The position numbers and the translations under genes are program-made. DNA of 52,203 bases from Candidatus Gottesmanbacteria bacterium (GTDB lineage Bacteria > Patescibacteriota > Microgenomatia > JACOXO01): the NCBI GenBank assembly GCA_016182365.1, contig JACOXO010000017.1:1-52203 (forward strand). The letters are read 5' to 3'. Of the stretch, positions 5,200-35,342 are shown piece by piece. Under the pieces are notes generated by a model. The model saw only the letters and a program-made list of their open reading frames with translations. It was not told the DNA's origin and made no database searches. Every line of letters starts with the position of its first letter. Positions within the stretch are counted from its first letter, which is position 1.

Positions 5200-5229
5200 G
5201 ACAAAAAGATCCGATCGGGTGAAAATGTC
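5200..5229 (+). repeat. 30 bp palindromic repeat, copy 1
   Basis: GACAAAAAGATCCGATCGG followed by GTGAAAATGTC. The core CCGATCGG and the outer GACA/TGTC are dyad symmetric. The left arm overlaps a TTGACA (5198-5203) that could be the -35 box of the PaaX-like gene starting 6 bp after the repeat, so it sits where an autoregulatory operator would. Confidence 0.85.
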
Positions 5230-30095: not shown

Positions 30096-33000
30096 TTATT
30101 TAATTTTTTCCTCAGTGTTATTAGTAGGAGCTAATGAAGTTAAGCTTGTATTATCTGCAGGAGTTACTGGCGTAGACTGGGGAACGTCTTGAACAAAAGG
30201 TTTTTTATGAACAACGTCCGTTGGTGTAACCGAAAGAGACAGTGCCTGAAGTTCTTTGATAAGAACTTTAAATGATTCAGGTACTGTTGATTCAGGAATT
30301 ACCCCACCTTTTACAATCGCCTCAAATGACCGGGCTCTTCCTACAACATCATCACTTTTAATTGTAAGCATTTCCTGAAGAGTTCTTGCCGCCTTGTGTG
30401 CCTCAAGTGCCCATACTTCCATCTCTCCAAGACGCTGTCCTCCCATTTGAGCTTTACCTCCCAAAGGTTGCTGTGTAACAAGAGAATATGGACCGGTTGA
30501 TCTTGCGTGTGTTTTGTCCTCAACCATGTGGATAAGCTTCATGACATATTCTATTCCAACAACTACCTTTTCTTGGTAAGGCTCGCCTGTCTTACCGTCA
30601 AAAAGCCTCATTTTACCGTCTTTAGCAAAACCGGCTCTAATCAGTTCAGAAACAATTTTTTCCTCTGAAATTTTTTCAAAAACAGGTGTTGCTACTTTAT
30701 AGCCTAGTTTAGCTGCAGCAAGTCCTACATGGGCTTCAAGCAGCTGGCCTAAATTCATACGTGACAACACTGATAATGGAGAAATAATTATATCAACCGG
30801 ACTTCCATCCTCCATATAAGGCATATCGTGCTGAGATACAATTTTTGAAATAACGCCTTTATTTCCATGTCTTCCGGCAAGCTTATCTCCAACAACTACT
30901 TTTCTTATCTGGGCTACTTTTACGATAATTTTTTTAATTGTTCCTGGTTCAAGCTCATCACCTTTTTCACGGTCCAAAATTTTTACTTCGATAACTACTC
31001 CTCGTTCACCATGGGGCATACGAAGAGATGTATCTCTTACTTCTCTTGCTTTTTCTCCAAAAATTGCTCTAAGAAGCCTTTCCTCGGCTGTAAGTTCAGT
31101 CTCACCTTTTGGTGCAATCTTACCAACAAGAATATCATTGGGTCCAACCTCAGCCCCAACTATAACAATGCCTTCTTTATCAAGATTGCTAAGCGCTTCT
31201 TCTCCTACATTAGGAATATCTCTTGTTGTTTCTTCAGGACCAAGTTTAGTATCAACAACACTGGACTCATATTCTTCAATGTTGATTGATGTCAATATGT
31301 CTTCTTTGACTAATCTATCTGAAATAACAATAGCATCCTCATAACCTAAACCTTCATAACTCATATAGGCAATTGTAAGATTCTGGCCTAGTGCCAATTC
31401 TCCCGCTTCAGAGGCGGGACCATCGATTAAAACTTGACCTTTTTGAACTTTATCGCCAACAGAAACAAAAGGTTTTTGTGAAAAACATGTGCTTTGAGCT
31501 GTTCTTTGGAATTTTTTAACCTGATAAACTTCTTCTTTACCGCTTGTTCCTTTAACTACAATCATATTGGCGTCAACATAACTAACTTTTCCTGATTCTT
31601 TGGCTGTTATAACTCTTTCCATTGCAAGCGGAATAACTTTTTCCATTCCAGTTCCAACAATAGGGGAAGCTGGTTTTAGAAGAGGTACAGATTGACATTG
31701 CATGTGTGTACCCATCAAAGCCCTGTTTGCCTCATCATTTGCTAAAAACGGAATAAGGGATGCAGCAAGCCCTACAACTTGTCTTGGAACTATATCAATA
31801 TAACTAATATTCACTGCTTCTGTTTCCATGAAGCTACCTTTATATCTTGCTGGAACATGTGTATCAAGAATGTAACCTTTTTCATCTGTGTTAACCAAAG
31901 CATGAGTAATGTATACATTTTGCTCATCGTCAGCAGATAAATAGACAATTTCCTGAGTTAACTTCATTTTAGTTTTGGACCCTCTAACCTCTTTAACTAC
32001 CTTTCTGTATGGAGTTTCCAAAAATCCATATTCGTTTACTCTGGAATAAAGGGCCATATATGTAACAAGACCGATGTTAGGTCCTTCAGGCGATCTGACA
32101 GGACAGATTCTTCCATATTGTGAAGCATTAATATCTCTTATTGAAAATGAGGCTCTTTCTCTTGATATACCGCCTGAACCCATAACGGTAAGACGCCTTA
32201 AATTATCAAGTTCAGAAAGAGGATTGGTTTGATCAAGAATCGCAGAAAGTTGGCTTGTTCGGAAAAAATCGTTGATTGCTGCAATAACTGGTCTTGCATT
32301 AACAAGAAGAGTTGGAGTAATTTCCATACCGCTTCCTGCCAAACTCATTCTTTCTTTAACCACTCTTTCAAGTCTTAATAACCCTATTCTAAATGCGTTT
32401 TTAGCAACTAATTCACCAACTGTTCTTACTCTTCTATTACCTAAATGGTCAATATCATCGGTATCGCCTTTGCCATTTTGCAATCCTAGAAGATAGGATA
32501 CTGAGGCTATAAGGTCTTCCTTTGTCAAAATCCAATGGTCACGGTCATTTGGTATATTAATACCTAATTTTTTGTTAACTTTATATCTTCCAACATTATC
32601 CAAACTATAACGACGGGAGTTAAAAAATAAATTTTTTAAATATTCGCGGGCGGTATCCAAAACCACTGGTTCACCTGGCCGCATTCTTCTATATATCTCT
32701 AAAACTGCTTCAATTGAGCTCTTTGTAGGATCTTTATCAATTGTAGTTTTAATGTATTGATGTTTAGGATCAGTGTCAACTGCTTTGAAAAGATTAATCA
32801 TTTCTTCGTCGGTTTCAATCCCAACCGCTCTTAAAAAGGTGGTGATCGGGAATTTTCTCTTTCTATCTATTCTGACTGTAATTACATCATTTCTGGAAAT
32901 TGCAAAGTCAAGCCATGAACCATGTTCTGGTCTTATCTCTGAACTATGTAAAATACGGCCTGTGATCCTATCAATATCTGCGGAAAAAAATACTCCGGGA

Positions 33001-33416
33001 GACCTTACTATTTGATTGACAATGCATCTTTCAACACCATTGATGACAAAAGTTCCATTAGCTGTCATCTGGGGAATATCGCCTAAAAATACTTCCTGAG
33101 TTTGTCTTTGGCCTGTTTGTTTATTTATAAGAGTGGCTTTTAATTTAAGAGGGGCATCGTAGGTTACACCTTTTTCAATTGCTTCTTTGTAACTATATTT
33201 TGGTTCTCCAAATGAATGCTCTGAAAATTCCAATAACCAGTTTTTGCCAGTAAAATCCTCAACCGGTGAGATTTCAGAAAGAAGACGTGCAATTCCCGTG
33301 GTTAAAAAAGACGCATATGACTCTCTCTGTACAGAGGTTAAGTCTATGGGTTTTAATGTTTCAGGAAAAGCGCCTCCCCAATACTGCCTAATTGAAGGTT
33401 TATTATTTCCCATCAC
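30096..33416 (-). CDS. rpoB: DNA-directed RNA polymerase subunit beta
   Basis: The 1106-residue subunit has the rifampicin region ([35 protein letters not shown]), the [15 protein letters not shown] fragment, and the [16 protein letters not shown] and [32 protein letters not shown] catalytic segments. The rifampicin region reads [20 protein letters not shown], where the common bacterial form is NPLSELTHKRRLSALGPGG, a difference relevant to intrinsic rifampicin resistance. Start is MM; either Met is possible. A Thr/Pro-rich C-terminal tail ([21 protein letters not shown]) is extra. First gene of the superoperon; rplJL and rplKA are not upstream. Confidence 0.99.
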
Positions 33417-33706: not shown

Positions 33707-33736
33707 GACAAAAAGATCCGATCGGATGAATTTGTC
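33707..33736 (+). repeat. 30 bp palindromic repeat, copy 3
   Basis: GACAAAAAGATCCGATCGG followed by ATGAATTTGTC, the most symmetric copy: GACAAA/TTTGTC and ATCCGATCGGAT pair perfectly with three mismatched positions between. It lies 7 bp after the stop of the minus-strand gene at 33744. Confidence 0.85.
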
Positions 33737-34499: not shown

Positions 34500-34542
34500 A
34501 CAAGTTATTATATTATAGGTTGATATAAATTGGAGGGCTTTT

Positions 34543-34584
34543 ATGAGTATTTTTAAATTAATGGTATTATTTAGTTATGAATAA
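34543..34584 (+). CDS. Possible 13-residue leader peptide
   Basis: MSIFKLMVLFSYE begins 6 nt after a strong Shine-Dalgarno (GGAGGG, 34532-34537). Its stop overlaps the ATG of the 53-residue ORF at 34577. The downstream ORF has no ribosome binding site of its own, so this small frame may load ribosomes for it. It could also be chance. Confidence 0.4.
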   Translation: MSIFKLMVLFSYE

Positions 34585-34738
34585 TAAAATTCTAAAGAAG
34601 AAAAGAAGTGACACGAAAATTGGCACCATTGAAAAGAAATATGGAAAGGATTTTGGCGTTAGATCTGATAAAAAACTAGGTTCCTATTTAAAAGAAAAGG
34701 GGTATTCTTCACTAAGTAAGTTACTAATAAATGAGTAA
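34577..34738 (+). CDS. Small basic protein, putative antitoxin
   Basis: This gene is below the ORF-track cutoff. It encodes 53 residues beginning MNNKILKKKRSDTKIGTIEKKYG and ending SYLKEKGYSSLSKLLINE. It is strongly basic at the N-terminus and has a helical end. The spacing of TIEKKYGKDFGVRSDKKLGSYLKEKGY resembles a short conserved family rather than random sequence, but I cannot name it. It overlaps the HEPN-like gene by 8 bp, as small antitoxin genes commonly do with their toxin. Start is ATG 34577, the first in frame. Confidence 0.6.
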   Translation: MNNKILKKKRSDTKIGTIEKKYGKDFGVRSDKKLGSYLKEKGYSSLSKLLINE

Positions 34739-35342
34739 GTCAAACTTAATTATTCCCTCACAAAAAGAACTTGAATCTAGATTTTCGTTCATTAATAACA
34801 AAGTTTTGAGAGTAAATATTGTAATTGCTTTTAGATATATAATTTTTCTAATCAATATAGAGAGCGACCTAAAACTTCCAGGCGCTATTTTATACTCATT
34901 ATACAAAGATATTATTTTATACACCGCTACAATAGTAGAGAGCTGTATTCATTACTGCCTGAAAGAATATATTGATTCTGGTCAACTGAAAAGTACTGAC
35001 ATTATGCCTTATGAATGGAAAGACAGTGTATGTAAAGATTTATATCTAATTTCAGAAGACGAAAAAGTATGTGGCGTTATAAGACATAAAGTTAGCGAAC
35101 ACTTTACTGACAAAACACAGTTTAAAACATTGAATGAAGCTTGTTTGAAAGCTAATTTATTTGATAAATCTCTGTTTGACAAAGCCGAAAATCTGCGAAA
35201 TATAAGAAACAATATACATTTGGTAGCTTTAAAAAGAACTGACGATTATTATGAAAAAAAGGACACTCAAGAAGCTTTTGAGATAGCAAAAACCATTATT
35301 GAAAGAGTTGAGAATAAATTAATGAAATTGCAAAAAATCTGA
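34731..35342 (+). CDS. HEPN-like protein, putative RNase toxin
   Basis: The 203-residue protein is almost entirely alpha-helical by pattern. Near residues 154-163 it has LRNIRNNIHL, which fits the Rx4-6H catalytic motif of HEPN RNases. A preceding helical bundle (AILYSLYKDIILYTATIVESCIHYCLKEYI) and a final helix (AFEIAKTIIERVENKL) fit the fold. HEPN proteins occur as toxins and in abortive-infection systems. The 53-residue gene overlaps its start, so the two are likely translationally coupled. It ends 36 bp from the convergent gene at 35379. The HEPN call rests on the motif and helical pattern, not on an alignment. Confidence 0.5.
   Translation: MSKSNLIIPSQKELESRFSFINNKVLRVNIVIAFRYIIFLINIESDLKLPGAILYSLYKDIILYTATIVESCIHYCLKEYIDSGQLKSTDIMPYEWKDSVCKDLYLISEDEKVCGVIRHKVSEHFTDKTQFKTLNEACLKANLFDKSLFDKAENLRNIRNNIHLVALKRTDDYYEKKDTQEAFEIAKTIIERVENKLMKLQKI

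Follow-up and report, generated by a model that had tools for sequence, protein, structure and literature searches.

Gene organization of the locus

The window, which designates the whole stretch of DNA under analysis, is a single contig of 52,203 bp belonging to a genome of 1.04 Mb, probably that of a Microgenomatia-type Patescibacterium. Its gene core consists of ribosomal protein, rpoB/rpoC and cell-envelope genes. Three overlapping frames of 13, 53 and 203 residues are located on the forward strand (Table 1), as stated in the preliminary description. The genes of 53 and 203 residues, each present in a single copy in the source genome, are flanked on one side by rpoB and an orphan gene of 251 residues, and on the other side by a gene of 285 residues with a predicted membrane segment, which is followed by an mltG-like gene (names given by sequence reading). 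The orphan gene is the divergent gene already reported as unknown: it belongs to no family and has no homologues among 93 other genomes of the class.

Table 1. Positions in the window of the gene pair, its sequence elements and neighboring features
Feature	Position	Strand	Basis or remark
rpoB	30096..33416	−	name by sequence reading
Palindrome ATCCGATCGGAT	33716..33727		one-mismatch copies at 5209, 5889 and 45735
Divergent orphan gene, 251 residues	33744..34499	−	no family
Shine-Dalgarno sequence GGAGGG	34532..34537		precedes the 13-codon frame
13-codon frame, proposed leader peptide; probably outside the module	34543..34584	+	not conserved; overlaps the probable promoter
Probable extended -10 promoter element TGGTATTAT	34562..34570	+	spacing shared across loci
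53-residue basic small protein, candidate antitoxin	34577..34738	+	conserved partner of the 203-residue gene
Overlap of the 53- and 203-residue genes, 8 nt, ATGAGTAA	34731..34738	+	read from the sequence
203-residue predicted HEPN-fold protein, candidate RNase toxin	34731..35342	+	AlphaFold2 model, PDB neighbors, invariant residues
Codon of E70, conserved acidic residue	34938..34940	+	E in 25/25 sequences covering the position
Motif R156-N-I-R159-N160-N-I-H163	35196..35219	+	invariant part is R159-N160-x-x-H163

The palindrome mentioned earlier as lying near these genes does exist. Four copies of it lie in the window, where 0.03 would be expected, and the stretch around it occurs in ten places in the genome. 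It was rejected as a part of the gene pair and is regarded as a dispersed intergenic repeat of the genome.

The earlier observation that only the first frame is preceded by a Shine-Dalgarno sequence was confirmed. The 8-nt overlap between the genes of 53 and 203 residues has an identical length in five other loci (L030, L032, L034, L037 and L048). Since the larger gene lacks a Shine-Dalgarno sequence of its own, its translation is probably coupled, through this overlap, to that of the small gene.

The 203-residue protein

The AlphaFold2 model of the 203-residue protein, built from 26 aligned sequences, is confident (pLDDT 91.6, pTM 0.85). It contains helices at residues 24-46, 51-82, 146-160 (with the motif at its end) and 176-202, and the protein, previously described as all-helical, fits this description except for a beta-hairpin at residues 94-122, between two helices. 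The model shows the four-helix fold expected of HEPN proteins, including the insert that separates helices 2 and 3. In a Foldseek search against the PDB, the neighbors of high probability are HEPN toxins, namely HepT (7bxo, probability 0.97), AF_0298 (2hsb, 0.94, with a TM of 0.74 on the target) and YutE (1ylm, 0.84), all with E-values above 0.1; indeed, none of the PDB matches has an E-value below 0.1. Further HEPN matches are 7ae8, 6m6w, 1wwp and 5yep. The matches to proteins other than HEPN are elongated and V-ATPase stalk-like, and have low probability. Among viral structure models, the search did not yield a useful match.

No sequence profile, of HEPN or of any other family, matches the protein above cut-off in Pfam, NCBIfam or PADLOC, and the sequences of the PDB gave no HEPN match either. 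The weak Pfam matches to Lin1244_N, GalA_N and CFAP77 were rejected as being below cut-off. Membership in DUF4145 (PF13643), a HEPN-like domain, was likewise rejected: the L032 homologue resembles this family over the motif region, but the match (E 0.19) is far below cut-off and the window protein is not matched at all. DUF4145 proteins surveyed in relatives were too few in number for comparing profiles.

A survey of HEPN proteins places the active site at an acidic residue in helix 2 and at a motif located at the end of the motif helix, where the arginine is followed by a polar residue and is separated from the histidine by 4-6 residues (PMC3710099). The residues E70, R159, N160 and H163 are located where this survey places the active site. 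E70 lies within helix 51-82, although the second half of the Ex3[KR] pattern, frequent at this place in HEPN proteins, is not kept after it (the window protein has H74). R159, N160 and H163 are invariant in all of the 26 aligned HEPN sequences, whereas R156 is conserved in 19. The Rx6H motif proposed in the preliminary description, RNIRNNIH, is thus present at residues 156-163 and depends on R156, but the conserved form is RNxxH, or Rx3H (R159-N160-x2-H163). Its position at the helix end and the asparagine after the arginine fit HEPN proteins, and its R-to-H spacing of 3 is one below the published range. The protein is therefore called here a predicted HEPN-fold protein with a variant motif, given that the invariant spacing is 3 and that R156 is found in 19/26 sequences only.

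The small protein

The 53-residue protein is basic (pI 10.0, net charge +9) and its AlphaFold2 model (pLDDT 85) consists of three short helices. It has no family match above cut-off in Pfam, NCBIfam, PADLOC or PHROGs and no relatives in the PDB, either by fold or by sequence. By eye, its core is formed by two similar halves, RSDxKIGTIEKKYG and RSDxKLGxYLKxKG. T17, I18, E19, K20, Y22, R29 and D31 belong to its conserved face. The pattern RxDTxxGTIEKxYGxDxGVRSD provides a sequence handle for the family, which recurs beside defense genes in several phyla. Gene callers easily overlook a partner of about 53 residues without a Shine-Dalgarno sequence.

Conservation, loss and spread of the gene pair

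Judged by their sequences, both frames are genuine protein genes, conserved far beyond chance. Between the small protein and its L030 counterpart the identity is 77%, and of the codons that differ 17 are synonymous and 12 change the amino acid. The 203-residue protein is 57% identical to the corresponding protein of L030. In L002, the first homologue found, the counterpart of the 203-residue protein is 29% identical and is preceded by a gene of 62 residues whose product is 58% identical to the 53-residue protein.

A sample of 374 genomes of the class was searched from both the HEPN side and the small-protein side, and a sample of 380 genomes of the phylum from the HEPN side. The class search yielded ten strong HEPN-side loci, all ten with the small gene adjacent, and the phylum search yielded 13, counting that of the window, each of them immediately preceded by the small gene. 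Pooled, the two HEPN-side searches gave 22 distinct strong loci in Patescibacteria, and the small gene is directly upstream in each of them (22/22). Of the two outcomes that the preliminary description would have taken as a refutation, a confident fold other than HEPN and homologues that are never accompanied by the small gene, neither was observed. The remaining phylum matches from the HEPN side are just two remote ones without the small gene, L097 and L098 (E 1e-13 and 1e-10), which were treated as outside the family. These HEPN-like relatives (L097:1360-2085 and L098:1405-1929) carry the motifs RNKIH and RNLRH, respectively, and possibly represent a sister family with another partner.

Scans of genome contigs and viral contigs with the 203-residue protein as a single sequence gave no matches. 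The small-protein alignment, on the other hand, detected loci where these scans had not. It had one match among viral contigs (a long variant, see below), one among plasmids and none among phage records. In GTDB genomes, this alignment identified 55 loci, 29 of which carry a small gene of the short type. A whole HEPN-like gene is present in 23 of these 29, and its start lies −46 to +16 nt from the end of the small gene, mostly −10 to +16. The complete pairing seen from the HEPN side and the overlaps or gaps of a few nucleotides conform to the tight linkage of a small co-operonic gene to a toxin gene that marks type II toxin-antitoxin modules.

In the six remaining short-type loci the HEPN gene is deleted or broken. 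It is deleted in L031, L035 and L072, with short remnants in L031 and L072, and split in L033 and L047, where the small gene is kept. L083 has cuts in both genes, followed by a sequence that reads as the tail of hsdS. None of the 29 short-type loci combines an intact HEPN gene with a broken small gene. Loss of the toxin alone, as seen in L031, L035, L072, L033 and L047, is a further mark of type II modules and agrees with a toxin whose loss does no harm and an antitoxin whose loss does, in a sample that is partly biased because the loci were found via the small gene. For the same reason, the complete pairing seen from the HEPN side constitutes the unbiased half of the argument.

The two proteins also co-diverge. 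Across 24 loci their pairwise identities are correlated (mirror-tree r = 0.66), a value reached in none of 5000 permutations. The module is found in 10/374 and 12/380 genomes, or about 3%, and distant CPR lineages are intermixed in the HEPN tree, both of which point to a mobile accessory element. One MAG (TH-Jun18-152) contains two small/HEPN pairs, L039 and L050, from far-apart branches of this tree. A sporadic, mobile and repeatedly broken distribution is unlike that of a housekeeping factor, and the invariant arginine, asparagine, histidine and glutamate argue for catalysis. These features render quite improbable a pair devoid of toxicity, in which the HEPN protein would bind or process RNA and the small protein would be a subunit of it or regulate transcription, even if some HEPN domains are non-catalytic (PMC3710099) and a small protein of such basic composition could bind nucleic acid.

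The neighbors of the pair include type I restriction-modification genes, type IIG enzymes, MNT/HEPN-like genes and other toxin-antitoxin-like genes, a setting that favors a toxin-antitoxin module. HEPN proteins are known in restriction-modification and abortive-infection loci (PMC3710099); two pairs are located directly behind hsdS (L042 and L075), the broken pair of L083 is joined to an hsdS tail, and a long variant of the small protein immediately precedes hsdM in L057 and L058 and has methylases and CD-NTases nearby in other loci. These associations would suit an abortive-infection effector instead of an addiction module: the HEPN RNase would be kept latent, and the small protein would mainly sense a phage trigger, or link the RNase to it or to a partner restriction system as a PrrC-like back-up. 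Such a role is considered rather unlikely for the pair: most pairs, including that of the window, have no adjacent restriction-modification genes, and it is the small gene that accompanies the HEPN gene constantly, a pairing far stricter than that with any restriction-modification gene.

Start of transcription

A TATAAT-like hexamer ends exactly 6 nt upstream of the ATG of the small gene in 13 of 29 loci, window included, whereas every other spacing occurs three times at most. A Shine-Dalgarno sequence precedes this ATG in none of 30 loci. Owing to these two features, the transcripts are probably leaderless. In the window, TGG-TATTAT ends 6 nt before the ATG at 34577 and, consequently, the RNA probably starts at this ATG, downstream of the start of the supposed leader peptide.

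The preliminary description had joined the three frames in a single translational chain. Its second link, between the genes of 53 and 203 residues, was retained, but the first one is disfavored by the comparative promoter evidence. In a chain of three genes, a regulatory leader peptide of 13 residues would set the translation of the small gene by termination-reinitiation. Both the GGAGGG that is well spaced before the ATG at 34543 and the 8-nt overlap of the short frame with the start of the 53-residue frame (ATGAATAA) favor this arrangement, which is nonetheless judged improbable. A short frame that is preceded by a Shine-Dalgarno sequence and ends near the start of the small gene is found in 3/29 loci, window included, and in the other two it sits at the end of the upstream gene. 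Moreover, with a -10 box at the conserved spacing of the family, transcription would begin beyond the point at which the leader starts. The frame is accordingly disfavored as a leader peptide of the cassette, and the Shine-Dalgarno sequence in the window may be a chance or vestigial one.

Proposed function and comparison with known systems

The layout described for the locus, a small coupled partner followed by a HEPN protein as in toxin-antitoxin systems, is supported by the predicted fold, the invariant residues, the obligatory linkage and the small-gene-first overlap, and further by the co-divergence, sporadic spread and one-sided loss. The pair is probably a two-gene, type II-like toxin-antitoxin module, composed of a HEPN RNase toxin and an antitoxin from a new protein family. 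The promoter would produce a leaderless mRNA beginning at the small gene, whose basic product would be the antitoxin. The HEPN protein would be translated from the overlapping second frame, probably by coupling, and would act as a metal-independent RNase, probably dimeric, with E70, R159, N160 and H163 in its active site. Binding of the small protein would keep the HEPN protein inactive. Loss or titration of the small protein, which segregation, infection or stress might trigger, would then allow the HEPN protein to cut RNA and growth would stop. Against this reading, loci with a long form of the small protein lack a HEPN gene of the family of the pair, and hence the small fold does not serve solely as a HEPN antitoxin.

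The module resembles the HEPN/MNT (HepT-MntA) systems in having two adjacent genes, one of which encodes a predicted HEPN-fold protein with R/H active-site residues, and HepT is the top fold match. In those systems the toxin is AMPylated by its partner, a minimal nucleotidyltransferase (PMC7641770). AMPylation cannot be the mechanism here because the partner is a three-helix protein of 53 residues without a family match, and not a nucleotidyltransferase. Additional differences are the R-H spacing of 3, the beta-hairpin insert and the size of about 200 versus about 130 residues. In the Tha/Ith-1 system of Staphylococcus aureus prophages, a HEPN RNase (R265NSIMH270) is also restrained by a separate protein inhibitor; however, Tha has 301 residues and an Rx4H motif, is triggered by the phage tail and belongs to a noncontiguous operon (PMC11087260), and no homology was found between this system and the window pair. 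The HEPN RNases of restriction-modification loci (PMC3710099) recall the pairs located behind hsdS.

The pair is absent from the papers on HEPN toxins found in an open-access library, where the systems reported (PMC7641770, PMC11087260 and PMC13284704) are of the MNT type or have unrelated inhibitors. If the proposed function is correct, the module represents a toxin-antitoxin family with a new type of antitoxin and a shortened HEPN motif in the poorly explored and mostly uncultured Patescibacteria.

Long variant of the small protein

About 25 further loci encode a variant of the small protein of about 70 residues with the N-terminal extension DAPGM...RSRN...LRxKR (L044, L049, L052-L054, L057, L058, L060-L067, L069, L070, L073, L074, L076, L078-L081 and L085). 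Its overall pattern is DAPGM...RSRN...DTHVGTIEKQYGVDLGVRSDM...SLNDLI and it has no Pfam or NCBIfam family. The hosts comprise Bacteroidota, Verrucomicrobia, Omnitrophica, Pseudobacteroides, Acidobacteria, Desulfuromonadales and some Patescibacteria. The variant is rare (2/295 genomes in the class of L058) and sometimes stands alone. In several phyla it sits near restriction-modification and CBASS synthase genes: the 84 proteins encoded next to it include N6_N4 DNA methylases (6), HsdM_N (3), S24 peptidases, which are LexA-like repressors (5), and SMODS nucleotidyltransferases (2).

This distribution, together with the pairs behind hsdS, hints that the small fold may serve defense loci more generally. 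A broader proposal, tentative and rather doubtful as it stands, is that the small protein defines a family, undescribed and spread across phyla, of inhibitors or adaptors of defense modules. One branch, in Patescibacteria, would neutralize a new HEPN RNase with an Rx3H motif, and the longer DAPGM branch would serve restriction-modification, CBASS and other defense loci elsewhere.

In Epilithonimonas (L076:3938-4747), a 5'-nucleotidase domain (PF06189, E 7e-73) shares its reading frame with the long variant. In two Bacteroidota genomes, the variant is followed by a conserved gene of 69 residues (L063:4169-4378 and L064:4158-4367; MYYNYYVNTNAQSNGDHEVHKSGC...); an S24-type repressor gene precedes, and the large genes that come next differ between the two.
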